From Polynucleobacter sp. Adler-ghost (GTDB lineage: Bacteria > Pseudomonadota > Gammaproteobacteria > Burkholderiales > Burkholderiaceae), in the NCBI RefSeq assembly GCF_018688495.1, contig NZ_CP061320.1, positions 468,586-532,585 on the forward strand: DNA of 64,000 nt, in the 5' to 3' direction. The position numbers and the translations under genes are program-made. The notes beneath the pieces are model-generated. The model ran no database searches, was not told where the DNA came from, and saw only the letters and a program-made list of their open reading frames with translations. Positions 8,035-24,043 of this stretch are shown in pieces. Position 1 is the stretch's first letter, and the number at the start of each line of letters is the position of its first letter.

Positions 8035-8040
8035 GCCTGA

Positions 8041-8071: not shown

Positions 8072-8094
8072 CTCAAATTAAATGACTTAGCTAA

Positions 8095-8956: not shown

Positions 8957-10294
8957 ATGACAACTCGCGAAGGTAGTTTAGAAGCCCCAACCAGACATCC
9001 TTTGGATTGGCAAAACCCCAAGTTTTACGATAAAGCCGATCTAGAAGCTGAGATGGAGCGTGTCTTCGATCTTTGTCACGGTTGCCGTCGCTGTGTCAGT
9101 CTTTGTGGGTCATTTCCAGCCCTTTTTGATTTGGTAGATGCCACTGAAGATTTGGAGATGGAGCAGGTTGATAAGGCCGATTACCAAAAGGTAGTTGACC
9201 AATGCTACCTGTGCGATGTTTGCTACATGACCAAATGTCCTTATGTTCCTCCACACCCTTGGAATATTGATTTTCCTCACTTAATGCTTCGTGCAAAGGC
9301 AGTGAATTTCAAGGACGACAAAGCCACCTTCCGCGACAAACTACTCTCCTCTACAGATAAGCTTGGCCACTTTGCTGGCATTCCAATCGTTACGCAAGCA
9401 GTCAATGCTGTAAATAGCACTGGGCTTGCACGTTTGGTGATGGAAGGCGCCTTGGGAGTAGATAAGAATGCTTGGATCCCTGAATATGCTCATAAGACAT
9501 TCCCGCAGCTAGCTGAGAAATCTGAAAATCTGCCAGTAGTGGATGGTGTCAAGACACCCGGAAAAGTCGCTATCTATGCCACCTGCTATATCAATTACAA
9601 CGAGCCAGGCATAGGGCAAGATCTCATCAAGATTCTGAAACACAATGCTATTCCGTATGAGCTTGTGGATAAAGAAGCTTGTTGTGGCATGCCTAAGCTC
9701 GAGCTGGGTGATTTAGAGTCTGTTGCGCAGAATAAGGAAAAAAATATTCCAAAGTTGGCTAAGTTGGCACGTGAAGGTTATGCCATCTTGACGCCAATCC
9801 CATCATGTACTTTGATGTTTAAGCAAGAGTTGCCACTCATGTTCCCTGATTGTGCTGATACGCAATTGGTGAAAGAAGCGATGTGGGATCCCTTTGAATA
9901 CTTTATGGCGCGAAATTCGGATAGCCTCTTGAAGAAAGATTTCAGTAAAGAGCTCGGGAATGTGAGTTATCACATGGCCTGCCATTCACGGGTTCAAAAC
10001 GTAGGTCAAAAGACTGCGGAAACTCTAAAGCTAGTACCTGGTACTGAAGTGAATGTTGTGGAGCGTTGCTCAGGACATTCCGGTACCTGGGGTGTGAAGA
10101 AAGAGTTTCATGAAATGGCAATGAAAATTGGTAAGCCTGTATTCAGAAGAATGGCTGAAGAAGAGCCAAACTATATTAGCTCTGACTGTCAGCTAGCGGG
10201 TCATCATATTGAGCAGGGCATGGAAGAGTTGGGTTTACCTAAGTCCGAGATGGCTCACCCATTGACCTTACTTGCAAAAGCATATGGTCTTTAA
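8957..10294 (+). CDS. Double [4Fe-4S] / CCG-domain oxidoreductase (GlpC/HdrD-like)
   Basis: 445 residues. Two ferredoxin-type [4Fe-4S] sites are seen: C40-x2-C43-x2-C46-x3-C50 and C83-x2-C86-x2-C89-x4-C94. They are followed by two heterodisulfide-reductase cysteine-rich repeats; the first ends in EACCGMPKLE, the second has RCSGHSGTW where CCG is usual. Such proteins move electrons between quinone or flavoproteins and soluble acceptors. It lies divergent from rubrerythrin and 27 bases before a DUF3501 gene, a trio that I recall as recurrent, so it is probably the electron donor to rubrerythrin. The ribosome binding site AGAGGA supports the ATG. Confidence 0.85.
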   Translation: MTTREGSLEAPTRHPLDWQNPKFYDKADLEAEMERVFDLCHGCRRCVSLCGSFPALFDLVDATEDLEMEQVDKADYQKVVDQCYLCDVCYMTKCPYVPPHPWNIDFPHLMLRAKAVNFKDDKATFRDKLLSSTDKLGHFAGIPIVTQAVNAVNSTGLARLVMEGALGVDKNAWIPEYAHKTFPQLAEKSENLPVVDGVKTPGKVAIYATCYINYNEPGIGQDLIKILKHNAIPYELVDKEACCGMPKLELGDLESVAQNKEKNIPKLAKLAREGYAILTPIPSCTLMFKQELPLMFPDCADTQLVKEAMWDPFEYFMARNSDSLLKKDFSKELGNVSYHMACHSRVQNVGQKTAETLKLVPGTEVNVVERCSGHSGTWGVKKEFHEMAMKIGKPVFRRMAEEEPNYISSDCQLAGHHIEQGMEELGLPKSEMAHPLTLLAKAYGL

Positions 10295-10321
10295 TTTATA
10301 TAAATAAAGGAAGATAGCAGT

Positions 10322-10906
10322 ATGGGAATCATTACACGCGATAGTCTTTTAAGTCTTGAGACTTACCACAAAGAACGTCCCGTTTTTCGTGAAAAAGCGA
10401 TTAAAGAACGTCGCCTTCGTACTGTTCATCTTGGAGATCACGTAACACTGATTTTTGAGAATGAGTTTTTAATGCGCTATCAAATTCAAGAGATGCTGCG
10501 TGTAGAAAAAACATTTGAAGAGAGCGGTATCGAGGATGAGTTGAACGCGTACAACCCCTTGGTGCCTAGTGGTTCGGATTTCAAGGCCACTATGATGATT
10601 GAGTATCCCAATGAAGCAGATCGTAAAGTTGCGCTTGCGAAGTTAGTGGGCATAGAGCACAAGATCTTTATTGAGGTCGAAGGTCAGCCACGTGTCTATG
10701 CAATTGCTGACGAAGACTTGGAACGCTCTACTGCCGAGAAAACATCTGCAGTGCATTTCATGCGCTTTGATCTCACAGCGGATATGAAGATGGCTCTAAA
10801 GGCTGGCGCTCAGATGATGGTTGGTTGTGATCACAAGGGCTATCCAATGCATGTACAAACTCTCCCTTCAGAAACATTGGCTTCGCTCGTTTCTGATTTG
10901 AGTTAA
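10322..10906 (+). CDS. DUF3501 family protein
   Basis: 194 residues, matching my recollection of the DUF3501 family (N-terminal ITRDSLLSLETY, RTVHLGDHVTLIFEN, YQIQEMLR, and a C-terminal MVGCDHKGYPM). It is soluble, with no metal-binding cysteine cluster (one Cys in VGCDHKGY). The family is found beside rubrerythrin and CCG-domain Fe-S proteins, and function is unknown; a role in rubrerythrin reduction or assembly is inferred from context only. Preceded by AAGGAAGATAG and probably co-transcribed with the gene ending at 10294. Confidence 0.8.
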   Translation: MGIITRDSLLSLETYHKERPVFREKAIKERRLRTVHLGDHVTLIFENEFLMRYQIQEMLRVEKTFEESGIEDELNAYNPLVPSGSDFKATMMIEYPNEADRKVALAKLVGIEHKIFIEVEGQPRVYAIADEDLERSTAEKTSAVHFMRFDLTADMKMALKAGAQMMVGCDHKGYPMHVQTLPSETLASLVSDLS

Positions 10907-10919
10907 AGCAAGCTAGATC

Positions 10920-11846
10920 TTAAAGATATTGAACGCCAGGTAGGGCGCATTGACGAATTACTTCGGCTAATTCATTCATTGCAGCAGCGCGTGGAAAGTT
11001 TTTCCGCCAGACGAGACAAACTCGTCTGGTAGGAATGGGGTCCTCAAATGGAATATAGCGAATGAGCTGATCAGAAGATACATTATCAAAAGCGGACGTT
11101 CTAGGTAGTACTGAAATACCAATGCCACTGGCTACCATCTGTCGAATAGTTTCTAGAGATGAGCCCTCAAAACTACGTTGTTCCCCAATCGTTGTTCCAG
11201 AGCCTAAATGATTCAACTCTGGGCAGACACCAAGTACATGGTCTCGAAAACAGTGCCCAGTACCTAGTAACAAAGTATTTTGCTCTTTCAGCTCTCGATG
11301 CGGAATTGATGTTCTATTTTCCCAAGGATGACCTTTAGGCACTGCTACTAAAAAAGGTTCATCATACAATTCAATTTGATTGAGTCCAGTGCTTGCGAAG
11401 GGATCTGCAATCACTATGCAATCTAAGGCCCCTTGACGTAAGACTTCAAGAAGCCGAACGGTAAAGTTTTCCTCTAAAAATAAAGGAGCATGTGGCAGGC
11501 GCTCTCGTGCAACCCGCACTAAGCTGGGCAATAAGTAAGGTGCAATGGTGTAGATCGCACCAAGCCTGAGTGGGCCAGATAGAGGGTCTTGCCCATGCTT
11601 TGCTAAGTGCTTTAAGGAATTGGCTTCTTCAAGCACTCTTTGAGCCTGATCCACAATCAGTGAGCCTAGGCTAGTCATTGCAACCTCAGTATTGGTACGC
11701 TCAAAGATTTGGGTATTGAGTTCTTCCTCCAGCTTTCTAATGGCTACTGATAGGGTAGGCTGAGATACAAAGCAGGCATCTGCCGCTCTTCCAAAGTGGC
11801 GTTCACGTGCAACTGCGACGATATAGCGAAGTTCAGTAAGAGTCAT
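10920..11846 (-). CDS. oxyR: Peroxide-sensing LysR-type regulator OxyR
   Basis: 308 residues with an N-terminal winged helix-turn-helix (FGRAADACFVSQPTLSVAIRKLEEEL) and a LysR effector domain. The redox pair is exactly at C199 and C208 (GHCFRDHVLGVC), the disulfide-forming cysteines that activate E. coli OxyR. It is convergent with the DUF3501 gene (13 bases apart) and divergent from senB. Likely targets in this window are ahpCF and the rubrerythrin/Fe-S genes; control of the sen genes is only a suggestion from position. Confidence 0.95.
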   Translation of the reverse strand: MTLTELRYIVAVARERHFGRAADACFVSQPTLSVAIRKLEEELNTQIFERTNTEVAMTSLGSLIVDQAQRVLEEANSLKHLAKHGQDPLSGPLRLGAIYTIAPYLLPSLVRVARERLPHAPLFLEENFTVRLLEVLRQGALDCIVIADPFASTGLNQIELYDEPFLVAVPKGHPWENRTSIPHRELKEQNTLLLGTGHCFRDHVLGVCPELNHLGSGTTIGEQRSFEGSSLETIRQMVASGIGISVLPRTSAFDNVSSDQLIRYIPFEDPIPTRRVCLVWRKNFPRAAAMNELAEVIRQCALPGVQYL

Positions 11847-12009
11847 TTACGTCCTAGGGCTAGTAATAGGCATAGCGGAATATGTTTAACTATAGTGTAT
11901 TTGTAGGCAATTAAATCAGCAGGGATTACCAGCGGGGTATCTTAACTGACATAGTAAATCTCCATTACCATTAGAAATATAAAAAACTGTACTTTTTGAT
12001 AGGTTCAAC

Positions 12010-12969
12010 ATCAAACTCTATATTGAAATCGTAACGCCGGCACCACAAGGGAGTCTGCACGGAAACCGGATCACGGCGCTACGCTGGCAGAATTTCTTGG
12101 AGAAACTTGGCTATGCGGTTGTAGTGAGTGAATCCCTGTCAGGTGAAGATCCCGCCATGCTGATAGCGCTGCATGCCTATCGAAGCTATGCATCCATCAT
12201 GGCGTTTCATACGCAGCACCCTGATCGACCTATTGTCTTGGTTTTGACGGGTACTGATTTGTATCGAGACATGGCAGTCCATGGTGAGGTTCTTCACTCA
12301 ATGGAGGTGGCAGACCAACTGATTGTCTTGCAGTCCTCAGCCTTAGATTCTATTCCAGCGCATCTACGTCATAAAGCTCGAGTGATTTATCAGTCAGTTC
12401 AGCTTGATACCCCCGATGCAGTGAAGAGCACGAGTTTCCTAGTAATAGTGATTGGCCACCTGAGGGAGGAGAAGGATCCTTTTTGTATCGCCCGTAGTCT
12501 TCCCTTGATGCCCCTAAATTCTCAGATCAAGGTTTTGCATTTAGGTATGGCTATGAATAAGCAAATGGAGCGTACTGCTAAGGTGTATAGCGAAACTCTA
12601 AAGCGTTACCAATGGGTTGGCGAGGTAAGCCATGCCGATACATTAAAGGCACTCTCCCAGAGCCGCCTGATGGTGATTTCCAGTCGGATGGAGGGCGGCG
12701 CTCATGTAGTTTCAGAGGCAATAGCATTGGGCGTTCCAGTGATCGCTTCGGACATTCCTGGGAATCGAGGCTTGCTTGGAGATGACTATCTTGGCTACTA
12801 TCCCGTGGGTGATGAGCTTGAACTTGCAGCCCTACTATATCGCGCTGAAACTATGCCCGATTTTTATTCTGCGCTGAAAAAACAGATTGATACTCGTAAA
12901 GATCTGGTGAGCCCTGATCGAGAGATGCAATCTATTCAGGGGTTGATGATGCAGTTGCTTAAGGATTGA
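12010..12969 (+). CDS. senB: Selenosugar synthase, SenB-type glycosyltransferase
   Basis: GT-B glycosyltransferase-like protein. The conserved N-terminal sequence EIVTPAPQGSLHGNRITALRW is encoded upstream of the first conventional start codon (TTG at 12097), so the real start must lie at ATC 12010 or ATT 12022, both non-canonical; a stop at 11980 limits it, and AGG lies 7-9 bases before 12010. The C-terminal donor-binding motif is SRMEGGAHVVSEAIALG. SenB makes a selenosugar from a UDP-sugar and selenophosphate (known for the Variovorax system). About 319 residues from ATC. It is convergent with egtD, 12 bases apart. The assignment rests on the egtD/SelD/EgtB-like neighbours as well as sequence. 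Confidence 0.8.
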   Translation: MKLYIEIVTPAPQGSLHGNRITALRWQNFLEKLGYAVVVSESLSGEDPAMLIALHAYRSYASIMAFHTQHPDRPIVLVLTGTDLYRDMAVHGEVLHSMEVADQLIVLQSSALDSIPAHLRHKARVIYQSVQLDTPDAVKSTSFLVIVIGHLREEKDPFCIARSLPLMPLNSQIKVLHLGMAMNKQMERTAKVYSETLKRYQWVGEVSHADTLKALSQSRLMVISSRMEGGAHVVSEAIALGVPVIASDIPGNRGLLGDDYLGYYPVGDELELAALLYRAETMPDFYSALKKQIDTRKDLVSPDREMQSIQGLMMQLLKD

Positions 12970-12981
12970 ATAAAGACTCTA

Positions 12982-13911
12982 TTAGACTTTTGCAAAACAA
13001 ACTAAAAAGTACTTATTTGGATCGGTCCAGCATTGGATGTCAGCAAACCCAGCGCGACGAAGTTTTTCTACAAAATGTTCCTGGGTGTATTTATAGCTAT
13101 TTTCGGTATGAATTAAATCACCTACACCAAAAGAAATAATATGATCCTGACTTCCATTGCCCGGCAGAATTACCTGCACATCAGAGCGTGCTCGCAGGTG
13201 CATTTCAATACGGGACAGTGAGGCGTTAAAAAATGCATGATGCTCCCAATCCTGAAGCTGAAAATTGCTACCAATGAGTCGATTGACGTTTAGCAAGGCA
13301 TTTAAATTAAATGCGGCAGTGACTCCCAAGGGGTCGTTGTAGGCAAGGTGCAGGGTTTGTGTATCTTTAACTAGATCGACTCCAATTAAAAGTCCGCCAC
13401 TCTCGTAGCACTCCTGAGCAAGATTCATAAAAAACTGATCCGCTTTTTCAGGATCAAAGTTACCAATTGAAGAGCCCGGATAGAAAAATACTTTACGAAG
13501 TGCTTGAAGATCAGGAAAGGCTAGCGGCAAGCTAAGATCGATGGCATGAGCTGACATCTCAATCTGAGGAAACTGCTTCTGTAGATCGGCAACGGCGGCC
13601 TCTACATATTCTTTTGAAATATCAAGCGCTCTATATTGTTTTGGCGCAATACTATCAAAAAGTTGACTTCCTTTGGCACAATTACCGGCGCCCAGATCAA
13701 TTAAAACATCACAATGAGCTACGGCATCAGCAATCCCACGCTGATAGGTATCCATAATCCATTTCTCTGTTCGAGTTGGATAGTATTCATCAAGAAGCGT
13801 AATGACATCAAACAGGTGCGAGCCGATATCATCATAAAAAAACTTTGGCGATATCGATGGTGTATCGGCAGTTAGGCTTTGAAGTAATTCTTCAGTCAAT
13901 ATATGTTTCAT
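12982..13911 (-). CDS. egtD: L-histidine N-alpha-methyltransferase (hercynine synthase)
   Basis: 309 residues, the usual EgtD length. SAM-dependent trimethylation of histidine to hercynine, the betaine precursor of ergothioneine and selenoneine. Family motifs are FFYDDIGSHLFDVIT near 24-38, YYPTRTE, the SAM-binding DLGAGNCAKG, FFYPGSSIGNFDP and YNDPLGVTAAFNLN. It is the last gene of a minus-strand series that contains the ABC transporter, SelD and SenA genes, with 37 bases between it and the upstream permease gene. Identification is strong. Confidence 0.93.
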   Translation of the reverse strand: MKHILTEELLQSLTADTPSISPKFFYDDIGSHLFDVITLLDEYYPTRTEKWIMDTYQRGIADAVAHCDVLIDLGAGNCAKGSQLFDSIAPKQYRALDISKEYVEAAVADLQKQFPQIEMSAHAIDLSLPLAFPDLQALRKVFFYPGSSIGNFDPEKADQFFMNLAQECYESGGLLIGVDLVKDTQTLHLAYNDPLGVTAAFNLNALLNVNRLIGSNFQLQDWEHHAFFNASLSRIEMHLRARSDVQVILPGNGSQDHIISFGVGDLIHTENSYKYTQEHFVEKLRRAGFADIQCWTDPNKYFLVCFAKV

Positions 13912-13948
13912 TCGCTTGATTATCTATGAGGATGAATGAGCGGGCGCC

Positions 13949-14755
13949 TTAACCCTGGTTGTGCATCTGAATTCGACGTAGTTTGTTGCTTACAAAGTCT
14001 ACGAAGATAACCAAGACTAGCATTGCCATGATGACGGTTGATGCCTGTGCCTCTCGCAGTAAGGAGAGTTCGTAGTACAACATCTGTCCCAGTCCACCTG
14101 CACCTACAAAGCCCAATATCGTTGCCATGCGGATGTTCATTTCCCAGCGATACAGACTGTATGAAAGTAATTGAGGTGCGATTCCGGGGAGCGTGCCATA
14201 CAAGAAGCTAGTCACTCTTCCCGAGCCGTTCAGCATCAGAGCATTACTAGAGACTGTAGGATGATTTTCTAAGCTTTCACCAAACAGTCTTCCCAAAACT
14301 CCGGTAGTGTGCAGCATTAAAGCTAGGGTTCCTGCAAATGGCCCAAGGCCAACAGCCAGAACCATGAGAGCCGCCCAAACTAATTCCGGGACGGATCGTA
14401 AGAAGTTACAAATAAAGCGAGTGATCCCTTTTGCAGGCGGACCAAATCTGCCTGATACTGGCAGTGAAAGTCCGAGACTGAAAATAGCTGCAATGAGGGT
14501 TGCTAGAGCGGAAATCGCGAGCGTTTGTAAAACACCATGCCAAATTTTATCTAAAAAATCTGGACTCAAATCTGGTGGAAAAAATCGCCCAATAAACTCT
14601 GCAATATTTTTCAATGCTTCAAGTGTGAAGAGATTGGCTGGATTTAGTGCAAGGTAGATAAAGCTAGCAATCGTTAATCCAAATACGATCAAGAGCGTTA
14701 ACAGGCACTTGAGACAAAATTGACGAGCAGGTTGAATATTTATTGGAGTGCTCAT
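13949..14755 (-). CDS. PhnE-like ABC transporter permease (second copy)
   Basis: 268 residues with about six hydrophobic helices and the EAA-type cytoplasmic loop ending ATILGFVGAGGLGQ, typical of PhnE permeases. It overlaps the preceding permease by four bases (ATGA), so the two are co-translated and probably form a heterodimeric channel. PhnE proteins import phosphonate or related anions. Here the operon contains a SelD homologue, SenA and EgtD but no C-P lyase gene, which argues for a selenium oxyanion substrate. Confidence 0.85.
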   Translation of the reverse strand: MSTPINIQPARQFCLKCLLTLLIVFGLTIASFIYLALNPANLFTLEALKNIAEFIGRFFPPDLSPDFLDKIWHGVLQTLAISALATLIAAIFSLGLSLPVSGRFGPPAKGITRFICNFLRSVPELVWAALMVLAVGLGPFAGTLALMLHTTGVLGRLFGESLENHPTVSSNALMLNGSGRVTSFLYGTLPGIAPQLLSYSLYRWEMNIRMATILGFVGAGGLGQMLYYELSLLREAQASTVIMAMLVLVIFVDFVSNKLRRIQMHNQG

Positions 14756-15579
14756 GCCAATTGTTTCCGAATGATCAAGCTGATGTAGTCAGCGAGTAAC
14801 ACAAGCCCCAAGAAAACTACCAGGATAGTTGACACCTCTCCGCCATTGAGCATTTTCATGGACTGATCCATCAATTGACCTAATCCGCCTGCACCCACAA
14901 AGCCCATCACCACAGAGGCTCTTACGGCACACTCCCATCGATAAACTGTATAGGATGCAAGCTCTTGCGCTGAACCTGGTAATAAGCCATATAGAAATGC
15001 CGCTATTCGATTGCTACCAGACAAAATGAGTGCGCGAGCTGGAAGAGTATTGCCAGACTCCAAAATTTCTGAATAGACTTTAGCGAGCATGCCACCATAA
15101 GTAATGGCGATGGCTAAAACACCTGCAATAGCACCTAGGCCGAATACTCTCACCAATAAGAGCGCCCACACAATCTCTGGGATGCCGCGCAACACCAGCA
15201 TGAGCGAGCGCGCAAGAAGCCGAATAGATTGAGCAAACTGATGGTCAGATGTAGGGCCAATTCTTGAAATCGAGAGGCTATAAGAAATGATGAGGCCAAG
15301 CGGTACCGCAATTACCATTGCCAAGGCAATTCCGGCGGTAGCCATGGCTAAAGTTTCTACAGTAGCTTTGATTACGAGCGATAAAAATGTTGCTTCAATA
15401 TTGGGTGGAAAAAACTGCACTAAAAAATCACCCATGACTTGGATATTATTTGGGTCGATTAAAAGCTTGGGCTCAAATTGGGTAAGCTGTAGCATCGGCC
15501 AAAGAATGGCGATGGCAAGCAGTAGACCCATGAAACGATAGGGTGTTGCGGGGTCCCTTGAAATAATGGATGTTTGCAT
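14752..15579 (-). CDS. PhnE-like ABC transporter permease (first copy)
   Basis: 275 residues; hydrophobic helices at about 16-33, 70-95, 120-160 and in the C-terminal part; EAA loop with ASVVMGFVGAGGLGQ. It resembles its neighbour (13949-14755) in length and motif order, pointing to an old duplication. The ATG overlaps the stop of the ATPase gene by one base (TAATG) and its own stop overlaps the next permease, so translation is coupled. Confidence 0.85.
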   Translation of the reverse strand: MQTSIISRDPATPYRFMGLLLAIAILWPMLQLTQFEPKLLIDPNNIQVMGDFLVQFFPPNIEATFLSLVIKATVETLAMATAGIALAMVIAVPLGLIISYSLSISRIGPTSDHQFAQSIRLLARSLMLVLRGIPEIVWALLLVRVFGLGAIAGVLAIAITYGGMLAKVYSEILESGNTLPARALILSGSNRIAAFLYGLLPGSAQELASYTVYRWECAVRASVVMGFVGAGGLGQLMDQSMKMLNGGEVSTILVVFLGLVLLADYISLIIRKQLA

Positions 15580-16358
15580 TAGGAGGCAGTACTGCTGGCT
15601 TGAATTGGAAGTCCTCCAAGCTCAGATGCATATAACTCTCTTAAGATGTGTTCGCTGACTTCGCTTGAGGGCAGATCAAAAATCATTTGACCATCTCGAA
15701 TGCCAATAATGCGTGGAAACCATCGTAAGGCAATATCGACTGCATGAAGGCTGGCGACAAGAGTAGCATTGCGCTTTTTTGCCTCTTCAATCAGTACGCC
15801 AATCGTCAGATCTGAGAGAACTGGATCCATGGCGGATACTGGCTCATCGGCTAGGATAAGCTGGGGTGCTTGATACATTACTCTGGCAACCCCAACCCGC
15901 TGCAGCTGACCGCCCGAAAGACAGTCGCAACGATCAAATAACTTATCAGTTAGATCTAGGCGTTCCAAACACGATTGCGGGCCAGCAATGTCTACTGGGT
16001 ACACCAATGACAGAATCGATTTCCAGAGCGGCCACTGTCCTAATCGCCCAGCCAGAATGGCAGTGATCACTCTTTGTCTTAGTGGTATCGGGGGCGCCTG
16101 ATGCACTAAGCCAATCTTAGAGCGTAAGCGCTTGAGAGATGACTTAGAGAGTTTCCAAGGATTCTCTCCAAGTACCACAGCGGTCCCAAGTGAGGGCTTC
16201 AGGGCAGTGGCTAAGATATTTAAGAGCGTTGTCTTGCCAGACCCCGATGGGCCAATCACAGCGATGCACTCGCCAGCCTGTGCCACTAATGAAATTTGAC
16301 TGAGCGCCGGCGTTCCGTTGCTGTGCTCAAAGCTCAGCTGCTGTAAGAAAAGCCCCAC
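15579..16358 (-). CDS. PhnC-like ABC transporter ATP-binding protein
   Basis: 259 residues. Walker [10 protein letters not shown] (about 36-44), Q-loop VHQAP, ABC signature [13 protein letters not shown], Walker [14 protein letters not shown] and switch His in ASLHAVD. This order and the PhnC-type spacing fit the phosphonate/oxyanion importers. It energises the two adjacent permeases and might be shared with the lone permease fusion at 19686-21203, which has no ATPase of its own in the window. The stop codon overlaps the next start (TAATG). Confidence 0.88.
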
Positions 16359-16362
16359 GAGA

Positions 16363-17244
16363 CTACTTAATTAATCCAGCAGAGCGAGCTGCTTTTTCGA
16401 TGTCATCGTAATTCGACGATTTAGTGGTGACATATTTACTGGCACGCTGAAGATCCATGATTTCTTTGTAGTTCGGATTATTAGCATCTAACTTTAAAAA
16501 TGCGTCGATAATTTTCTTTACTGTTGCTGGGTCAAGATCTCCGCGAACAGTCCAGTTGTAATCAAAGTAGGGTGGCGTTGTGGAGAGTACTTTTGACTTT
16601 AGTGCATTGGGATTTTTTGCCTCATTGAGCTTAACCCAAACTGATGCATTGAGCGCGCCAACATCTGCCTTCCCGCTTGCTACGAAGGCGACAGTCGCAT
16701 CATGCGCACCTGAAAAAGCAATGTTTTTAAAGTCTTTGTCTGGATTTATGCCGGCTTGCATCAGGAAATAGCGTGGCATGAGGTGTCCGGATGTTGAGGA
16801 CGGTGAGCCAAATGCCATGGTCTTACCCTTGAGTTCGCTTAATGACTTTAATGAGCTATCAGCTGGAACAATGAAAACACTGGTGAATTTCTCATCTTCC
16901 ACTCGTTGAATAATTGGGTTAGCTGTGCCATTTGTTCTAATTTTGGTTTGAACGTAAGTAAAGCCACCCAACCAAGCCATATCAATCTTTTTGGTCGCCA
17001 AGGCCTCCACAACTGCCGCGTAGTCAGTCACCGGCGTGAACTCCACTTTCATGCCAGTTTCTTTTGAAAGATACTCGCCTAGAGGTTTGAATTTGCGTTG
17101 CAACTCTGTTGGCGATTCATCTGGAATTGCGGATATCCGCAACACCTCTTGTGCTAGGGCGGGAGTGCTTACGCTAGCAGCAATGCCAAAAGCAAGTAAT
17201 GCTCCAAGGAGGTGCTTCAGTGTATCCATTTTGATTGATTTCAT
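16363..17244 (-). CDS. PhnD-like periplasmic binding protein, candidate selenium oxyanion binder
   Basis: 293 residues from ATG 17244 (GTG 17271 is an upstream alternative). A signal peptide ([20 protein letters not shown]) is cleaved near ALAQ-EVLR. The mature protein has the PhnD fold: [69 protein letters not shown] recall a binding-protein family annotated as putative selenate transporter found next to selD, and this gene is next to a SelD homologue; the substrate is an inference. First gene of the transporter set, four bases before the ATPase gene. Confidence 0.8.
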
Positions 17245-17289
17245 AAAATATCTTTCTATATAGGTAATCACAAATTGCGGGGTACAGAT

Positions 17290-18336
17290 TTAGTTAACAG
17301 ACAAGCCTGTGCCAGCTACAAACTGTCCGATTTTCTGAGCGCTAGCAAAGCCGCCCAAATTAAGTATTGAGAGCACTTCAGCCTCTTGCTCTGGTGCGCA
17401 AGAAATCAGCAGGCCACCACTAGTTTGGGGGTCCGTAAGAACATTTTGTTGCCAGAGCCCCAGATTGCTTGCGAGTTGAATTTCATTGCCATAGCCAGCC
17501 CAATTGCGAGTAGAGGCACCGGTAAAAATATCTACCTTAACGTGCTCAATTGCTTCCTGCACAACCGGAATAGCATCCCAGTGGACCTGTGCCATTAAAT
17601 GAGATCCTCTCGCCATCTCTAGCAAATGCCCTGCCAAGCCAAAGCCCGTAACATCGGTTAAGGCATGTACGCCATCTAGCTGGGAGAGTGCAACACCAGG
17701 CTTGTTCAGCTTTGTGGTGAGAGCAATCATCTCTTTATAGCCTGCATCAGAGAGAACTTCTTTCTTGAGTGCTGCAGAAAGAATGCCTACACCCAACGGC
17801 TTGCTGAGGATGATGCTATCTCCCGCTTGAGCACCACTGTTACGTTTCAATTTTTTTGGGTCAACGATTCCAATGGCAACGAGGCCATAAATTGGCTCAA
17901 CAGTATCAATCGAGTGACCACCGGCAATCATAATGCCGGCATCATTACAAACCGATTCGCCACCAGCAGTCACTTGCTGGATAACTTCTAAAGGCAATAC
18001 TTGAATTGGCATACCCAATAGTGCCAGTGCGAAAAGAGGTTGAGCACCCATGGCGTAAATATCTGAAATAGCATTAGTGGCAGCAATGCGACCAAACTCA
18101 AATGGATCGTCCACGATTGGCATAAAGAAATCCGTCGTCGCAACGATCGCCTGATTTTCATTAATTTGATAAACGGCAGCGTCTTCGTTGTTATCAGAAC
18201 CTGCTAATAAGGCAGCAGGTAAATTGCGCATCGGTGAAGCCTTGAGGATGTCACTTAAGACACCAGGTGCAATCTTGCAGCCACAGCCTCCACCATGAGA
18301 TAAAGAGGTAAGGCGACCGTTATAGGGGGTAGTCAT
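17290..18336 (-). CDS. senC: Selenide, water dikinase homologue (SelD/SenC)
   Basis: 348 residues from ATG 18336 (a TTG at 18354 is weaker). Makes selenophosphate from selenide and ATP. The N-terminal catalytic loop is GGGCGCKIAPGVL with both cysteines and the lysine of SelD (no selenocysteine codon). TTDFFMPIVDDPFEFGRIAA carries the metal-binding aspartates, and GGHSID, DVTGFGLAGHLLEM and DPQTSGG follow. It sits between senA and the PhnD-like gene, so selenophosphate probably feeds SenB. No selA, selB or selenouridine synthase gene is in the window, so it cannot be excluded that the cell also uses it as general SelD. Confidence 0.9.
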   Translation of the reverse strand: MTTPYNGRLTSLSHGGGCGCKIAPGVLSDILKASPMRNLPAALLAGSDNNEDAAVYQINENQAIVATTDFFMPIVDDPFEFGRIAATNAISDIYAMGAQPLFALALLGMPIQVLPLEVIQQVTAGGESVCNDAGIMIAGGHSIDTVEPIYGLVAIGIVDPKKLKRNSGAQAGDSIILSKPLGVGILSAALKKEVLSDAGYKEMIALTTKLNKPGVALSQLDGVHALTDVTGFGLAGHLLEMARGSHLMAQVHWDAIPVVQEAIEHVKVDIFTGASTRNWAGYGNEIQLASNLGLWQQNVLTDPQTSGGLLISCAPEQEAEVLSILNLGGFASAQKIGQFVAGTGLSVN

Positions 18337-18396
18337 AAAGTATTGCCAATTCAAATTAAAAGTAGTGGTTACCGCAACATCAAGAGCTTACTCAAT

Positions 18397-19548
18397 TTAG
18401 AGTAAACACGTACGAAAGCCGCAAAAATGATCACTTCTATGAGCTTGATAAAAGTTACGAAATGCCACTCTTTTTAGGCGATCGGGGGTAAATAGACTAC
18501 CACCCTTGAGCACCTGATAGCTGCCATCGAACCAGGGCTGTGAATAGTCGATATAGGGATCGGCGGTAAATCCAGGGAAGGGGGTAAAAGTGCTGCTAGT
18601 CCACTCCCATAAATTAGAGGATTGCCAGACTCCCTGCTTTTGTGACATTAGTAGACTAAGTTCATGTTCGTTAGGCAAACGCACTTGATGATATTCACAA
18701 AAACGCTGAGCATCTAGGTAGCTGATGTGGCGTAGAGCGGATGCGCTACTTAAGGGCAGCCATTCATTAAAAATTCGCTCTAGCCAAATATCTCCCTCCT
18801 TTTTCCAGTGAGAGGGTGGCGCTACAGGCATGGACTGGCCAAGATTGCTTGGTGATTGCAGAAACTCTAGGTATTCGCCATTGGTGACGGGCGTGCTTGC
18901 AATATCAAATGCAGGGAGATCATTAGAGTGTGCCCACTTTTCATTATCAAAGATAAAGCCGGAGCCCTGCTCAGAACCAGCTTGCATCGTTGATTTTGGA
19001 AAATGAATCCAGTCTCGCGCTTTAGCCTCAAACTTACTCGTACTAGTGAAGGGAGTAAAGGGTATAGAGCGCCCCATGGTCTGCCACATATAGGCAAATG
19101 CCTCATTGTGCATATCCTGATGCAAGATCGCTAGCTGGATAAAGTAAGCAGCTTTATTGTCGATTGGTGTGCGTAGCAAATCTTGAGTACTGCTAACGAC
19201 GCTGTAGTTGTATTCCAGTAGATTATCTAGAGATGGCATTGGAGTGGACCAACGATCTTGATGTGCCATCTCTGAAGAATTAAATAAGTAGTCAGCGTTC
19301 TTCATGAATGATGGCTTACTCTCTTGGCCATCGCGATGAACCCAGAATTCATGAAACCAAGTTAGGTGACCCAATTCCCACAGCGGGGGATTCAGAATAT
19401 TGAGCTGAGGAACTATCTGATCCGCTGCCGAAATATGGCTCAGAATTTGACGGGTGATACGGTTGCTTTCCTCTAGCCACTGTGCCAAGGTTGACGCAGG
19501 TGGATGCGGAGCATAAAGAAGATAGTCCTGGCTTAAAGATTCAGACAT
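18397..19548 (-). CDS. senA: EgtB-like non-heme iron enzyme, probable selenoneine synthase SenA
   Basis: 383 residues from ATG 19548; an upstream TTG at 19608 would add 20 residues. An N-terminal DinB-like helical bundle holds the three-His iron site: HLTWFHEFW supplies one or two histidines and HQDMHNEAF the HxxxH. The C-terminal FGE-sulfatase domain contains TPVTNGEYLEF, RLPNEHE, LWEWTSS and HFCGFRTC. EgtB joins hercynine to a thiol; SenA joins it to the selenosugar made by SenB. The SenA reading is preferred because senB and a SelD homologue are present and there is no egtA or egtC. Plain EgtB activity is the alternative. Confidence 0.83.
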   Translation of the reverse strand: MSESLSQDYLLYAPHPPASTLAQWLEESNRITRQILSHISAADQIVPQLNILNPPLWELGHLTWFHEFWVHRDGQESKPSFMKNADYLFNSSEMAHQDRWSTPMPSLDNLLEYNYSVVSSTQDLLRTPIDNKAAYFIQLAILHQDMHNEAFAYMWQTMGRSIPFTPFTSTSKFEAKARDWIHFPKSTMQAGSEQGSGFIFDNEKWAHSNDLPAFDIASTPVTNGEYLEFLQSPSNLGQSMPVAPPSHWKKEGDIWLERIFNEWLPLSSASALRHISYLDAQRFCEYHQVRLPNEHELSLLMSQKQGVWQSSNLWEWTSSTFTPFPGFTADPYIDYSQPWFDGSYQVLKGGSLFTPDRLKRVAFRNFYQAHRSDHFCGFRTCLL

Positions 19549-19629
19549 ACAGTATTTTGGGAAAAATCTTCTGTTGAGTTGAGTGATTGCAGTATAGAAG
19601 ACCACCAATAAGACTTCAGTTTGTCAGCT

Positions 19630-19672
19630 AAGGGAACTATTTGCAGACTCCTTTTCTGCAATTTGTTCCCTT
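19630..19672 (-). promoter_or_regulatory. Long hairpin between the fusion transporter and senA
   Basis: An 8-bp outer stem (19630-19637 with 19665-19672) and a 7-bp inner stem (19041-like core at 19641-19647 with 19655-19661) are separated by a 3x3 internal loop. On the minus strand the apical loop reads AAAGGAG. It follows the transporter stop (19686) and lies about 80 bases before the senA ATG. There is no U-run, so it is more likely an mRNA processing, stability or leader element than a terminator. Confidence 0.5.
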
Positions 19673-19685
19673 GCCTAGGTAAATA

Positions 19686-21203
19686 TTAGATATTTTTTGA
19701 TCTACGTTTCGGCGTCAGAATGATTTGAGCAAGCAGAGCCAGCATGGCGGCTGGTATAGCTCCAGCAAGCATGAGTGCGTGGTCGTTTACGGCCAGCCCA
19801 GCTACTATGCGATCACCAAATCCACCAGCACCTACCAGCGCCGCTAGGGTGCAAGTACCAACTCCAATTACCGTTGCCGATGCTAAACCCGTCATGATGA
19901 CGGGCCGAGCAAATGGAAGCTCGATCGAAATGAGCAATTGCCATTCATTGCAACCAAGGGCCAGCGCTGCTTCTTTTAGATTCGATGGAACTTCTATTAA
20001 GCTGATGTGGGTCGCATTCACAATGGGCAGTAGGCCATATAAAAATAAGGCTAAAACCGCTGGCACAGCCCCTATTTGATCTAGTAGAGCAATCAATATC
20101 GTCAGCAGTGCAAGTGAAGGGATGGTCTGCAAAATACCGGTAGCACCTAAAATCCAAGCCGCATATCGGGGTCGTCGGTATGCCAGAATGCCTAAAGGGA
20201 TTCCGACGAGCAGGGCCATGGTTGAGGAGATCGCTACCAGCAGAACATGATCACGTAGGGCGGTAAAAAAATCTGGACCAAGGAGTAACTTAAAAAACCT
20301 AGAGAGCTGTGTAGGGCTTTGTTGATCATTTGTGCTTGTCTTTAAAAATACATTCACCACTTTTTCAAAACTCATGCCTGACTCAGCTAGTCCATTGAGC
20401 TTGGCCATAGTGGCTTCATCTAATTTTCCCTCTAAGCTTTGTAAGGATTTTTCATCAAAATCAGAGCGCATTAACAGAGCGGCATCGTAGCGTGGAAATG
20501 CCTTCCTATCATCTTCCAATAGAACCAGATCTTTTTGGGCAATCGCTGCATCAGTGGAGTAGGCGTCCACAATATCGGTATCGCCTCGTGCCAAAGCATC
20601 GTAGGCTAAGCCATGCTCTAACACTTTCGTTGGCTGTATTGTTAAAGCATAATTTTTAACAAGTGCTGACCACCCGTCAGCCCGCGTCTTAAATTCTGGC
20701 GATAACGCAATCCGCAGAGTGGTTTGCTGTTTAGTGCTGAGGTTTTCGATATCACTAATACGTTTGAGGCCTAAAGCTTTTGCTTGCTCTGCCCTCATGG
20801 CAAGTGCATAGGTGTTATTAAACCCAAGGGGTATTGCTACTTTTAAGCCCTTAGGTTTAAGCCAAACATTGAGCTCACTTAGTGATGCTTGTGTTTCTGG
20901 GCGTTTTAGGATTTCTCTCAGAATGGTGCCGGTATATTCTGGGTAAACATCAATCTGCCCCGTTGTAAGTGCTTGAGTGACAATTGCAGTATTACCAAGA
21001 CCCTGTCGATGAATGGCCTGTACGCCAGCAGCACGTAATGTTTGATTGACCAACTCCCCAAGCACATAGCTTTCTGTAAAACGCTTTGAGCCAACTACAG
21101 TACTTTTTTCCATAGGCTGCGCCATGATGGAAAAGCTGATAGCCACCCCAATACATAAGCTGAGCTTCGTCCACAAAGGAAAAATAGATTTACTGAAATA
21201 CAA
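19686..21203 (-). CDS. Binding-protein/permease fusion, betaine (OpuC/EgtU) class
   Basis: 505 residues from a TTG start with AAGG upstream. A signal peptide (LCIGVAISFSIMAQP) leads into a periplasmic OpuAC/OsmX-type binding domain (VGSKRFTESYVLGEL, LTTGQIDVYPEYTGT, VDAYSTDAAIAQ) to about residue 280. A membrane permease domain follows at about 300-500 (LLVGIPLGILAYRRP, TIPSLALLTILIALL, GVGTCTLAALVGAGGFGD). The order is binding domain then permease. EgtU, the known ergothioneine importer, has the reverse order. No ATPase of this class is adjacent. The substrate may be a betaine such as hercynine, ergothioneine or selenoneine, suggested by senA directly downstream. Confidence 0.85.
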   Translation of the reverse strand: MYFSKSIFPLWTKLSLCIGVAISFSIMAQPMEKSTVVGSKRFTESYVLGELVNQTLRAAGVQAIHRQGLGNTAIVTQALTTGQIDVYPEYTGTILREILKRPETQASLSELNVWLKPKGLKVAIPLGFNNTYALAMRAEQAKALGLKRISDIENLSTKQQTTLRIALSPEFKTRADGWSALVKNYALTIQPTKVLEHGLAYDALARGDTDIVDAYSTDAAIAQKDLVLLEDDRKAFPRYDAALLMRSDFDEKSLQSLEGKLDEATMAKLNGLAESGMSFEKVVNVFLKTSTNDQQSPTQLSRFFKLLLGPDFFTALRDHVLLVAISSTMALLVGIPLGILAYRRPRYAAWILGATGILQTIPSLALLTILIALLDQIGAVPAVLALFLYGLLPIVNATHISLIEVPSNLKEAALALGCNEWQLLISIELPFARPVIMTGLASATVIGVGTCTLAALVGAGGFGDRIVAGLAVNDHALMLAGAIPAAMLALLAQIILTPKRRSKNI

Positions 21204-21338
21204 GTGAGATTGACCTTGTTAAGAACGCAAGATCCCATCATAAAAGCCTTTGGCTAATTTTGCCTGGCTAGCTAGCTAGTTTTTAGTTATGCCGCTTAAG
21301 GGTAGCATTTACTGTTACATTGGTATTGGTACAACTTA

Positions 21339-21782
21339 ATGGTAAAGACTATTTATATGTCGGTCACTTTGGATTTCAAAACGCTCGTCACACAACTGGG
21401 TGAGGCAGTCATTATTTCTGACCGAGATGAAAATATCTTGTTTTGGAATGCCTCAGCAGAGCGTATTTTCGGATTTACTCCAGAGGAGGCTTTGGGTAAA
21501 ACGCTCAGCATCATCACGCCTGAGCGCTTTAGAGAACGTCACTCGAAAGGCTACTTTCACACCATTCAAACTGGACAAACGAAGTATGGACATACTTTAC
21601 TGAGGGTTCCTGCAGTCCATAAAGATGGACACTCTATTTCAATTGCATTCTCGGTAAGTATGTTGTTTGATGAGCAAAAGCAAGCTATTGCAATAGCAGC
21701 AATCATTCGCGATGAGACTGAGCGGTTTCAGGAGGAGCGCCAATTAAAAGCAAAGTTAGCAGCTTATGAGAGCAGTGACTGA
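21339..21782 (+). CDS. Single PAS-domain protein
   Basis: 147 residues; a PAS fold fills the whole protein (LGEAVIISDRDENILFWNASAERIFGFTPEEALGK, FRERHSKGYFHTIQTG, VHKDGHSISIAFSVSML, IAAIIRDETERFQEER). A short C-terminal helix (RQLKAKLAAYESSD) resembles a truncated signalling helix. No kinase, GGDEF or HTH output is attached, so it would act in trans as a redox or ligand sensor. The start may instead be ATG 21357; neither has a clear ribosome binding site. Divergent from the fusion transporter gene, so a regulatory link to it is possible. Confidence 0.8.
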   Translation: MVKTIYMSVTLDFKTLVTQLGEAVIISDRDENILFWNASAERIFGFTPEEALGKTLSIITPERFRERHSKGYFHTIQTGQTKYGHTLLRVPAVHKDGHSISIAFSVSMLFDEQKQAIAIAAIIRDETERFQEERQLKAKLAAYESSD

Positions 21783-21796
21783 GTTGCCAGCCTAAA

Positions 21797-21827
21797 GAAA
21801 AAGCCCCTGAACTTTCATTCAAGGGCT
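21797..21827 (-). terminator. Terminator A, after pseudo-tRNA copy A
   Basis: Stem 21802-21811 with 21818-21827 (10 bp, one C-A mismatch), loop of six bases, followed on the minus strand by TTTTTC. It is almost the same sequence as the terminator at 22841-22868, and resembles in position the tRNA-Lys terminator at 23848-23872. Confidence 0.75.
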
Positions 21828-21836
21828 TCGTATTAC

Positions 21837-21895
21837 TGGTGGGTCGGGCGAGATTGACTTCGTCGAAACTGCGTTTTCGAACTCGCGACCAACGG
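21837..21895 (-). repeat. Degenerate tRNA-Lys 3' copy A
   Basis: 59 bases that match the 3' part of tRNA-Lys(UUU) (23882-23918), including the encoded CCA and acceptor 3' strand, but interrupted in the T-arm by about 21 extra bases containing TTCGTCGAA. It lacks the anticodon arm and 5' half, so it cannot be a functional tRNA. It matches copy B (22877-22935) at 58 of 59 positions. The stop codon of the small gene at 21899 lies three bases beyond its edge. Confidence 0.85.
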
Positions 21896-21898
21896 TGT

Positions 21899-22126
21899 TT
21901 AGGCCGTAAGTTGACGCTGTTTGATGAGTTCTGCAGCAGAGATCCGAACTATCTTACCGTCAACAGTGGTTACGATAGCCGTATTAGTTTGGATTGCCAA
22001 GTCTATTGCTGCTTGGCCTGCTCGTTGCATAGCGTAGGATCCAGCAATATCAGGATCTGATGAATTACGAATGTCTTTGCTTGGAGTCAACACAAAAGAT
22101 TTTTTTATGGGATTATTTTTTTCCAT
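21899..22126 (-). CDS. Small third protein of a toxin-antitoxin operon
   Basis: Not firmly recognised. 75 residues from ATG 22126 (ATGs at 22138 and 22135 are alternatives). Features are DPDIAGSYAMQRAGQAAIDLAIQ and a C-terminal VVRISAAEL-like segment (DGKIVRISAAELIKQR), a pattern shared with small proteins often found in TA operons. It overlaps the toxin gene stop by 14 bases through the sequence ATGGAAAAAAATAA. It may be a second antitoxin or a stabiliser. Confidence 0.55.
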   Translation of the reverse strand: MEKNNPIKKSFVLTPSKDIRNSSDPDIAGSYAMQRAGQAAIDLAIQTNTAIVTTVDGKIVRISAAELIKQRQLTA

Positions 22127-22442
22127 ACGCTGCATCATGATCCGGTTGAATTAATAAGACGCGTAGAAAATGATCCTCTCTAAAGCCAATTCCTCGAATT
22201 GATTTACTGACTCTGAAGGAGTATAGGGCATCAATTCCATTGGGCGCTGGAATGCTCTGGATCTTTTCCCATTTCAAACCCTTATCACGGTAGACCTGGT
22301 TCCAGGTTAGTTGGGTAATTTTTTCAAAAGTAGCAAAAGCTTTTTCTTGCTCCGTTAACTCTAGTTTTTCCCAGGCTGATTGAAAAATAGGGCTATTGAG
22401 GTCTAGCTCTACTAAAGGCTCAGGCTTTGCGTTTCGAACCAT
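22113..22442 (-). CDS. RelE/ParE-superfamily toxin (probable)
   Basis: 109 residues. The C-terminal half (WEKIQSIPAPNGIDALYSFRVSKSIRGIGFREDHFLRVLLIQPDHDAAY) has the beta-hairpin, basic residues and terminal 'HDxAY' typical of RelE/YoeB/ParE-type mRNA interferase or gyrase toxins. The N-terminal 50 residues form a helical extension. It overlaps the upstream antitoxin-like gene by 23 bases, the usual translational coupling of type II TA pairs. Target unknown. Confidence 0.75.
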   Translation of the reverse strand: MVRNAKPEPLVELDLNSPIFQSAWEKLELTEQEKAFATFEKITQLTWNQVYRDKGLKWEKIQSIPAPNGIDALYSFRVSKSIRGIGFREDHFLRVLLIQPDHDAAYGKK

Positions 22443-22710
22443 TCGTTTTTGCCATTTTTAGTTTAGAAAGATTGGTAGCTTTTGCAGGCGTCTTTTGTGC
22501 CCAGGCTAGGGCGGTAGCTAAATCTTTTTTAACAGTAGGCTTGTGCATCCACTTTTCATTATCTGGAATAACGGTGGCGGTACGAATCACCCAAACTCCT
22601 GGTTCAGGGTTTTCAACTAGCACTTGGCGGCCGGCATGCTCCTTGCCAAGTGAAATTTGTCCACTGGATCCAATGGATTTAATAACTTGATGATCTATTA
22701 CTGCGCCCAT
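22420..22710 (-). CDS. AbrB-like antitoxin (probable)
   Basis: 96 residues. The first 60 resemble a SpoVT/AbrB-type swapped-hairpin DNA-binding domain (SSGQISLGKEHAGRQVLVENPEPG). The C-terminal tail is basic and Ala/Lys-rich (NLSKLKMAKTNGSKRK) and is expected to bind and block the toxin. It is first in a three-gene unit with overlapping starts. A perfect palindrome lies 22 bases upstream, consistent with autoregulation. Confidence 0.7.
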   Translation of the reverse strand: MGAVIDHQVIKSIGSSGQISLGKEHAGRQVLVENPEPGVWVIRTATVIPDNEKWMHKPTVKKDLATALAWAQKTPAKATNLSKLKMAKTNGSKRKA

Positions 22711-22726
22711 GGCATTCTCCCGTATT

Positions 22727-22753
22727 CATGCTGCATTAATGCATTATAGCATG
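22727..22753 (-). promoter_or_regulatory. Nested palindrome, likely operator of the TA operon
   Basis: TGCATTAATGCA at 22732-22743 is a perfect 12-bp palindrome. It lies within an outer dyad CATGCT (22727-22732) / AGCATG (22748-22753). It is just upstream of the AbrB-like antitoxin start (22710), where TA operons place autoregulatory operators. Confidence 0.6.
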
Positions 22754-22840
22754 ATAATTCTGAAAATTATACTTATCTGGAGTAATGTAATAGCATATTC
22801 TGGCTTGAAGTATGGTCTTAGCTTGATTATGCAAAAGAAA

Positions 22841-22868
22841 AAGCCCTTGAACTTTAATTCAAGGGCTT
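22841..22868 (-). terminator. Terminator B, after pseudo-tRNA copy B
   Basis: Perfect stem AGCCCTTGAA / TTCAAGGGCT (22842-22851 with 22858-22867), six-base loop, followed on the minus strand by TTTTTC. Would end transcription from the Fic module. Confidence 0.8.
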
Positions 22869-22876
22869 TGTGTTTC

Positions 22877-22935
22877 TGGTGGGTCGGGCGAGATTGACTT
22901 CGTCGAAAATGCGTTTTCGAACTCGCGACCAACGG
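22877..22935 (-). repeat. Degenerate tRNA-Lys 3' copy B
   Basis: Same structure as copy A (21837-21895), one base different (A for C in the inserted part). It contains the tRNA-Lys 3' sequence with CCA, split by the same 21-base insertion. It lies 48 bases past the stop of the Fic gene. With copy A it flanks the AbrB/RelE-type TA module as a direct repeat. Confidence 0.85.
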
Positions 22936-22983
22936 GCTTAAAGAGGTTTAATTGGCTCAAACAGGTCGGTAAATTTCTCAAAT

Positions 22984-23577
22984 CTATTCATTGCTCTCCA
23001 GGTGCTCTAGGATGAGATTGGCAAGAATGGATTCATCGCCATTAAAGGCTAGTTCCATTGCTAGATAAATTTGCTCTTGCTCCAGGTCGGAGTAGTCGAG
23101 TTGATAGCCGGTTGATTGACTAAGTTGGGAGATGAATATGCGTTGTACGCGACCATTTCCCTCTCGAAAAGGGTGAAGGGCGTTTATCTCTGATAAGTAG
23201 TGAGCTAGTCGTTTTGATAGGGAGTTTGAATCTAGCCCCTTAAGCCAGTTTTCACGAGCTAGTTTGTTAAAGATGTCGTTTGCCGCAGATTCAATAAAGC
23301 GCACATTAGCAAAATGACTATTGCCACGGCTAATATCTACTGTGCGAATCTTCCCGGCCCAGTCGTATACATCCTGAAAGAGGGCTAAGTGAATGCGCTG
23401 AAGATGAATAAGGTCAAATTGACCTGCTATGGGACTCTCTAGAATCTCAATTGACCGCAAAGTCGATAGCTCACCTTCGTAGGCGTCTAAATCTTGTGTG
23501 TTAGTTATTTCTGCTTTATTTCGAAGTACGTCTGTACCTGGGTAGCAGTAAGTGTCATCCGCGTCGTAGCGTGACAT
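22984..23577 (-). CDS. Fic-domain toxin (AMP-transferase type)
   Basis: 197 residues from ATG 23577 (protein MSRYDADDTYCYPGTD). The Fic motif HPFREGNGRVQR is complete, with catalytic His, the Mg-binding acidic residue and both arginines. The upstream LFQDVYDWAGKIRTVDISRGNSHFA contains the flap region. FIC enzymes transfer AMP from ATP to targets such as gyrase and topoisomerase IV. It is class I because the inhibitory helix is in a separate small gene that overlaps its start by 23 bases. Confidence 0.9.
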   Translation of the reverse strand: MSRYDADDTYCYPGTDVLRNKAEITNTQDLDAYEGELSTLRSIEILESPIAGQFDLIHLQRIHLALFQDVYDWAGKIRTVDISRGNSHFANVRFIESAANDIFNKLARENWLKGLDSNSLSKRLAHYLSEINALHPFREGNGRVQRIFISQLSQSTGYQLDYSDLEQEQIYLAMELAFNGDESILANLILEHLESNE

Positions 23578-23752
23578 AACGTTGTTTGGTTTCTTCCAAT
23601 ATTTGCGCAATACTCTTTTTGCCAGCAACGTAATCAGTTAGGTTTTGTTCTAATTGCTTAGTTGGAATAATGCCCTCAATCCGAGCAGAAGCTACAGCAT
23701 TAGAAACGTTGTATTGGCGGGCTTGAGATTGGGTGGCAAACTTAGTTGGCAT
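23555..23752 (-). CDS. FicA/VbhA-like antitoxin
   Basis: 65 residues. SARIEG (about residues 22-27) matches the [S/T]xxxE[G/N] inhibition motif, whose glutamate blocks ATP binding in the partner Fic protein. A C-terminal helical part (KKSIAQILEETKQRYV) follows. It overlaps the Fic gene by 23 bases. The motif and context make the antitoxin call good despite the short length. Confidence 0.85.
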   Translation of the reverse strand: MPTKFATQSQARQYNVSNAVASARIEGIIPTKQLEQNLTDYVAGKKSIAQILEETKQRYVTLRRG

Positions 23753-23847
23753 AGTACTATTTTAGTGGATTTGGAGCTGTTTTTCTAGTTAAAAAAAGGC
23801 CTAAAATAAGGTTTAAAGAGCTATTTTTGAAGGATATCGCAGTCAAT

Positions 23848-23872
23848 AAAAAAGCCCCGCAAAAGCGAGGCT
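23848..23872 (-). terminator. Terminator of tRNA-Lys
   Basis: Stem 23853-23860 with 23865-23872 (8 bp, one C-A mismatch) and loop AAAA/TTTT, followed on the minus strand by six T. It lies ten bases past the tRNA 3' end. Confidence 0.8.
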
Positions 23873-23881
23873 TAGTAATAT

Positions 23882-23957: not shown

Positions 23958-24043
23958 AGTAAAAAGAAGATTATAGCAAGAAGTTTATGGGCGCCCTTGG
24001 GTCAGTAGGCCTCTGCCTTCAAGCCCTTGTACTTACAAGAGCG

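Follow-up and report, generated by a model that had tools for sequence, protein, structure and literature searches.

A probable set of selenoneine genes interleaved with transporter genes

Does the freshwater bacterium Polynucleobacter sp. Adler-ghost carry a locus for making the selenium antioxidant selenoneine, and what would the transporters encoded among its enzymes carry? The question arises from about 9 kb (positions 12010 to 21203) of a 64,000-nucleotide stretch of its genome, referred to here as the window, for which a first-pass annotation had proposed synthesis of selenoneine from histidine and inorganic selenium. We scanned the window proteins with NCBIfam and Pfam models, applying the curated NCBIfam cut-offs, and searched the genome, which is one contig of 2,101,026 bases. 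By gene content, the locus is real and complete as a selenoneine-type locus. From sequence comparison, we consider it probable that the locus makes selenoneine and secures its own selenium, and that its fusion transporter handles a trimethylammonium compound. Every gene of the locus except senB lies on the minus strand:

12010..12969, plus strand: senB, selenosugar synthase (selenium glycosyltransferase), probable start ATC at 12010; TIGR04348 378.8 bits, PDB 8k5u 201.7 bits
12982..13911, minus strand: egtD, histidine N-alpha-trimethyltransferase (to hercynine); TIGR03438 333.7 bits
13949..14755, minus strand: PhnE-like permease 2; TIGR01097 244 bits, cut-off 216.7
14752..15579, minus strand: PhnE-like permease 1; TIGR01097 199.3 bits, under the cut-off of 216.7
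15579..16358, minus strand: PhnC-like ATP-binding cassette (ABC) ATPase; TIGR02315 203.9 bits, under the cut-off of 266.1
16363..17244, minus strand: TIGR04553 periplasmic binding protein, putative selenium oxyanion receptor; 365 bits, cut-off 250
17290..18354, minus strand: selD (in the SenC role), selenophosphate synthase; NF002098 508.5 bits, TIGR00476 415.6 bits
18397..19548, minus strand: senA, selenoneine synthase, ATG start at 19548 (TTG 19608 in the open reading frame (ORF) list); NF041186 396.7 bits
19686..21203, minus strand: OpuAC binding domain-ABC permease fusion with a complete aromatic cage, likely a transporter of a trimethylammonium compound; PF04069 162.4 bits, PF00528 69.8 bits

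The senB gene converges on egtD, with 12 bp between their ends. From senA through egtD the genes overlap or are separated by no more than 45 bases, and the gap between the fusion gene and the senA ATG is 137 bases.

All four enzymes of the first-pass annotation were recovered where it had placed them. SenB passed TIGR04348 (cut-off 300), and its four best distinct sequences among solved structures, led by 8k5u, were all of SenB type rather than unrelated glycosyltransferases. It contains the motifs GNRIT, GHLREEK and EGGAHV and retains the residues named as important in PMC10891094. EgtD passed TIGR03438 (cut-off 290.9) and is the only PF10017 match in the genome, while SelD passed NF002098 (cut-off 299) and contains HGGGCGCKIAP, which includes the GCGCK noted earlier. 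The iron enzyme first described as EgtB-like has the SenA model NF041186 as its best NCBIfam model, well over its 210 bits against the EgtB model TIGR03440 (cut-off 360); no other protein of the genome scores above 76 bits against NF041186.

Two points weigh against this identification of SenA. Alone among the four enzymes, it falls under its cut-off (420 for NF041186), and the model does not separate SenA from OvsA, as the OvsA-like protein of locus L212 scores 484 bits. Because of that score, the cut-off is not decisive for function; none of the 151 genomes in our sample of the genus passes it. Solved structures put selenoneine synthase first, at 192 bits (best PDB 8ryz), OvsA at 174 and the best EgtB at 87, and a profile of the genus SenA sequences gave the same order (275.5, 248.4 and 129.5 bits). 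His143 and His147 are invariant across 12 genus sequences.

In the proposed route, EgtD would trimethylate histidine to hercynine, SelD would turn selenide into selenophosphate, SenB would move the selenium onto a uridine diphosphate sugar, and SenA would place it on hercynine to yield selenoneine. SenB, EgtD, SelD and SenA together complete the known route, which supports the predicted pathway. The locus shares SenA, SenB, a SelD-type SenC and hercynine as substrate with senABC of Variovorax paradoxus, but adds EgtD, the TIGR04553 ABC cassette and the OpuAC-permease fusion; it also differs in that its SelD is the only copy over cut-off in the genome and in the probable ATC start of senB.

Recurrence in the genus and beyond

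SenB exceeded its cut-off in 46 of the 151 genomes (47 matches), and fragments or split copies were found in five more (G054, G103, G108, G110 and G137), giving a SenB-positive set of 51. We examined 41 genus loci, comprising 38 of the 47 SenB matches, two broken copies and the window. The order senB-egtD-cassette-selD-senA is present in 16 of them: 12 read senB-egtD-phnE2-phnE1-phnC-binding protein-selD-senA, and four, including the window, have the fusion in addition. In four others, the four enzymes are joined by a fusion beside senB and, upstream of senA, by a cassette of a second type, and eight have the four enzymes without a cassette (five with the enzymes only, three with the fusion as well). 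Three lack selD in the locus, and the remaining ten are incomplete, rearranged or in decay. Loci L045, L051 and L053 have the same flanks as the window (lysR and a PAS gene) with the cassette missing; the genomes of the first two (G107 and G031, respectively) carry a second-type cassette elsewhere. G039, G131 and G149 have the fusion at a distance of a few kilobases from senA, beyond the stretches first taken. Among the broken loci, that of G103 (L072) is decaying, with several genes split and selD open, and that of G108 (L071) has a split senB and an open selD.

When genome contigs were scanned with a SenA alignment, 77 loci emerged, genus included and overlapping the 41; the window proteins were compared with these by phmmer. 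Because many contigs are short, the counts are lower bounds: SenB at least 59, EgtD at least 45, SelD at least 42, a related binding protein at least 29, the fusion at least 25 and both transporters at least 13. The interleaved transporters had been called unusual, a description to be amended, as these counts show them to recur. Two diverged loci from Poribacteria (L216 and L220) have the binding protein, SenA, SelD, SenB, the fusion and EgtD; their senB spans two ORFs, which may mean a broken gene or a misassembly. In five Poribacteria loci and in L230, the fusion and EgtD are present and no SenB was seen in the stretch. In the open-licence literature we found no paper that treats Polynucleobacter and selenoneine together.

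Selenoneine, ergothioneine or ovoselenol

A locus of this kind might instead work with sulfur and make ergothioneine. SenA is a relative of EgtB, as its TIGR03440 score shows, and EgtD is common to the ergothioneine pathway; that reading, however, leaves SenB and SelD without a role, and the window enzyme fails the EgtB cut-off. Moreover, the genus has a separate egtD-egtB set. A second class of proteins matching the SenA model (266–326 bits, the EgtB class) occurs in 26 of the 151 genomes, none of them SenB-positive (p 7e-6); this and the other association tests ignore kinship among genomes, which weighs against our reading of them. Two proteins of this class were scanned and scored 478 and 505 bits against TIGR03440, the remaining genomes being assigned by score class. 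In all six EgtB-class loci fetched, egtD adjoins, and one further neighbour that we scanned is a PatB-family C-S lyase. According to PMC10702425, SenB discriminates 10–20-fold against thiophosphate and SenC rejects sulfide. Ergothioneine is thus a very improbable product of the window locus.

Slightly less probable still is ovoselenol, the histidine-derived product of the OvsA type. OvsA belongs to a related iron enzyme family and, in the searches above, comes second to selenoneine synthase among the kinds of solved relative of the window enzyme; at L212, SenB lies beside an OvsA-like protein. The window enzyme is nevertheless nearer to solved SenA, whereas the distant relatives at L212 and L205 favour OvsA, and the window locus contains EgtD. 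An OvsA identity for the window SenA was rejected on the score order of the single-chain and profile searches. Selenoneine remains the favoured product, and the genus offers a natural comparison, having selenoneine or ergothioneine-type genes, never both among the 151 genomes, with and without the importer.

SelD and the use of selenophosphate

The earlier assignment of selD holds as far as a selenophosphate synthase is concerned. Its role as a dedicated SenC does not, because no other SelD in the genome clears the cut-off; one further match, weak at 51.6 bits, probably represents a different kinase of the AIRS family. The genome also encodes SelU (C1:1051770-1052678), and no SelA match was found in it, so the window SelD probably serves both selenoneine and the selenouridine of transfer RNA (tRNA). 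Across the genus sample, SelD is present in 147, SelU in 145 and SelA in seven of the 151 genomes. With SelD and SelU nearly universal, selenophosphate would already be needed for tRNA selenouridine, and selenoneine would be an added use. One genome, G063, has two senA-egtD-senB copies (L034 and L035), both without selD in the stretch, and a SelD is encoded some 14 kb away from one copy.

A candidate selenium oxyanion importer

The four genes first described as PhnCDE-like proved to encode the TIGR04553 binding protein, the PhnC-like ATPase and two PhnE-like permeases. The binding protein passes TIGR04553, a model named for a "putative selenate" binding protein, and scores 190.7 bits against the phosphonate PhnD model, under the cut-off of 261.1. 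We infer that the cassette imports a selenium oxyanion, with selenite favoured because it is pyramidal like phosphite. The literature found on TIGR04553 and transporters dealt, by title, with other subjects only.

Could this be an ordinary phosphonate or phosphite importer that stands here by chance? The PhnE and PhnC models do match, and the cassette shares family and gene make-up with the PhnCDE and PtxABC importers. It differs from them in its TIGR04553 binding protein, its two PhnE-like permeases and its linkage to selD and sen genes, and the PhnD and PhnC models stay under cut-off whereas TIGR04553 is passed. In the genus, TIGR04553 is over cut-off in 33 of the 151 genomes, all of which have SenB (31) or SelA (2) (Fisher p 3.5e-18, ignoring kinship). 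Within the SenB-negative genomes, it was found in two of six with SelA versus none of 94 without SelA (p 0.003). In one of these two SenB-free genomes, G043, the cassette lies directly behind selD; in G116 it does not. Two types of cassette occupy different positions at sen loci, the second being 44–55% identical to the first and sitting upstream of senA, and the arrangement recurs in Poribacteria. When the binding proteins of four loci (L041, L216, L238 and L240) were scanned, all passed TIGR04553. A chance association is therefore improbable.

Several observations count against the import of selenium by this cassette. The TIGR04553 model has the status of a hypothetical equivalog, and among solved structures the best-matching relatives of the binding protein bear the names of phosphonate binders. 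Four of the six SelA genomes without SenB lack TIGR04553. G059 (L053), where TIGR04553 gave no match, combines all four enzymes with the fusion, so the importer is dispensable. Two other solved relatives of the binding protein are named ArrX and an Aio protein, both of which we take to bind arsenic oxyanions.

Two further loci combine such cassettes with the fusion. At L131 (G155), a TIGR04553-like binding protein and a permease (15510-17252) share a stretch with a fusion, with no sen gene seen. At L233 (G069), egtD, the second-type cassette, senA and the fusion share one site, and senB is elsewhere in the genome.

The OpuAC-permease fusion

The betaine-type fusion transporter of the first-pass annotation was confirmed as OpuAC joined to a permease domain (BPD_transp_1, PF00528). 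Its binding domain retains the aromatic cage of ProX together with the Lys and Arg contacts. The cargo of the fusion would be a trimethylammonium compound, with selenoneine or hercynine the likeliest candidates. The ergothioneine importer EgtU likewise has an OpuAC-type binding domain fused to a permease and an aromatic cage, but its binding domain is C-terminal, as judged from residue numbers, and that of the window fusion is N-terminal. The three EgtU marks given in PMC9732360 are missing from the fusion: the positions of EgtU Phe293, Tyr337 and Gly244 are Tyr, Phe and Phe, as in glycine betaine ProX, in all 61 aligned fusions, the window's included. According to the same paper, selenoneine binding by EgtU had yet to be tried.

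A general osmoprotectant transporter with no relation to selenoneine is a serious alternative, although it falls somewhat short of an even chance. The cage resembles that of AfProX, the EgtU-specific residues are missing, and relatives of the fusion occur in 73 of 300 genomes of the order at E 1e-30 (own genome included, some by the permease part alone). Across 40 fusion loci fetched outside the genus, senB, selD and egtD are all missing from the stretch; what these loci offer is the cassette at L131 and, at 25% identity, a weak match to the SenA/EgtB family at L138. The cage is identical in fusions linked and unlinked to sen or egt genes and so gives no choice of ligand, and among the binding-domain residues we found a single weak column that separates the two groups. 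All of this weighs against a role in selenoneine handling.

Against the osmoprotectant reading stand the presence of the fusion in 25 of the 77 SenA loci and the finding that 24 of the 26 fusion-bearing genus genomes have SenB, a count that includes partial copies (G054 and G066) and copies with internal stops (G046, G103 and G137). In a tree of 61 fusions, the sen/egt-linked copies require five changes, and five throughout the 5–95% range of 200 bootstrap trees, with L138 labelled unlinked despite its weak match. A first tree of 68 rows, which contained wrong-frame ORFs and fragments, also gave five changes; L105, L116, L118, L122, L124, L131 and L132 were dropped from it, and near-duplicates (L156, L157, L163, L170, L174, L175, L206, L226 and L229) were left outside both trees. 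Each of the five linked lineages has at least one locus with SenB. We read the five changes as five recruitments, with the counterpoint that they may mix gains and losses and that several rows sit on long branches.

The partner ATPase is a further difficulty for transport by the window fusion. In 9 of the 40 loci outside the genus, the gene immediately upstream of the fusion encodes an ATPase (242–606 bits with the L109 ATPase as query, query included), and, in favour of the link to selenoneine, in linked loci outside the main clade a PhnC-like ATPase (42–57 bits) lies just upstream in 9 of 14 checked. None of the 12 genus loci checked has an ATPase beside the fusion, which again differs from EgtU. 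No cognate ATPase for the window fusion was found in its genome, where the best matches to the outside cognate ATPase are at most 40% identical, so a shared or too diverged ATPase must be assumed. Of the earlier suggestion of product handling by the fusion, plausibility is what stands, because the EgtU ergothioneine signature and an evident ATPase partner are absent.

At 21060-21203 in the window, the ATG at which the fusions of close relatives start reads ACG. The window fusion probably starts upstream of that ACG, perhaps at TTG 21203.

The start codon of senB

The ORF list places the senB start at TTG 12097 and misses an ATC at 12010, where the region of the first-pass annotation begins and which is the best-supported start. 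From the in-frame stop at 11980-11982 to the conserved N-terminus there is no ATG, GTG or TTG. The proposed start is the following element:

12001..12012, plus strand: Shine-Dalgarno AGG (12001-12003), a 6-nucleotide spacer and ATC (12010-12012), kept in the senB clade

We compared 72 distinct senB starts, one more being without the motif. In 16 of them no ATG, GTG or TTG precedes the conserved N-terminus, and the same place is occupied by ATC (13 cases) or ATT (3 cases). All 13 ATC cases have AGG or GGA 6 bases ahead of the ATC, eight of them with TAA immediately ahead of that motif. L043, L044, L057 and L071 retain the ATC and have an upstream TTG as well. Conservation of the ATC is by itself a weak argument because the neighbouring isoleucine codon is equally constant; the choice of ATC 12010 follows from the lack of another start and from the Shine-Dalgarno spacing, which make translation of senB from this codon likely.

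Other SenB copies vary in their company. In an Acidobacteria metagenome-assembled genome (L224:11393-13390), SenB and EgtD form one protein of 666 residues (TIGR04348 403 bits, TIGR03438 354 bits). SenB is a single open frame in five genomes without a SenA match above 200 bits: L036, L038 and L042 (G125, G128 and G121), and L058 and L062 (G005 and G042), where SelD adjoins SenB. Within each of these two groups, the pairwise ratio of nonsynonymous to synonymous substitution rates (dN/dS) of SenB is 0.07–0.13. Such copies may reflect selenosugar without selenoneine, or recent loss, and possibly another selenometabolite.

A wider proposal

The value of the locus lies in its importer and its transporter, which comparative evidence ties to selenium and to selenoneine or a precursor, respectively. 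More tentatively, and with less than an even chance of the whole being right, we propose that the cassette is a dedicated high-affinity selenium importer of bacteria with two forms at sen loci, that the fusions transport selenoneine or hercynine and were recruited some five times, that selenoneine replaces ergothioneine within the genus, and that the SenB of the clade is translated from AUC. If so, the AUC start would keep the SenB level low under the control of initiation factor 3. With this locus and its relatives, attention can be fixed on one binding protein, and a bacterial selenium uptake system becomes directly testable.

Neighbouring features

Divergent from senB lies a neighbour that is a candidate member of the locus only:

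10920..11846, minus strand: OxyR-like LysR regulator; best model OxyR PRK11151, 272 bits, under the cut-off of 329

Its pairing with senB across the intergenic region 11847-12009 is seen only in the close relatives L045, L051, L053 and L157. Within the locus, no match to an Rfam family attained the gathering score, and positions 8000-26000 gave just a tRNA at 23885-23957. A hairpin at 19641-19661, in the gap between the fusion and senA, has a Shine-Dalgarno-like AAAGGAG in its loop; it was rejected as a regulator, since close relatives lack it. A rubrerythrin-like gene lies at 8095-8532.

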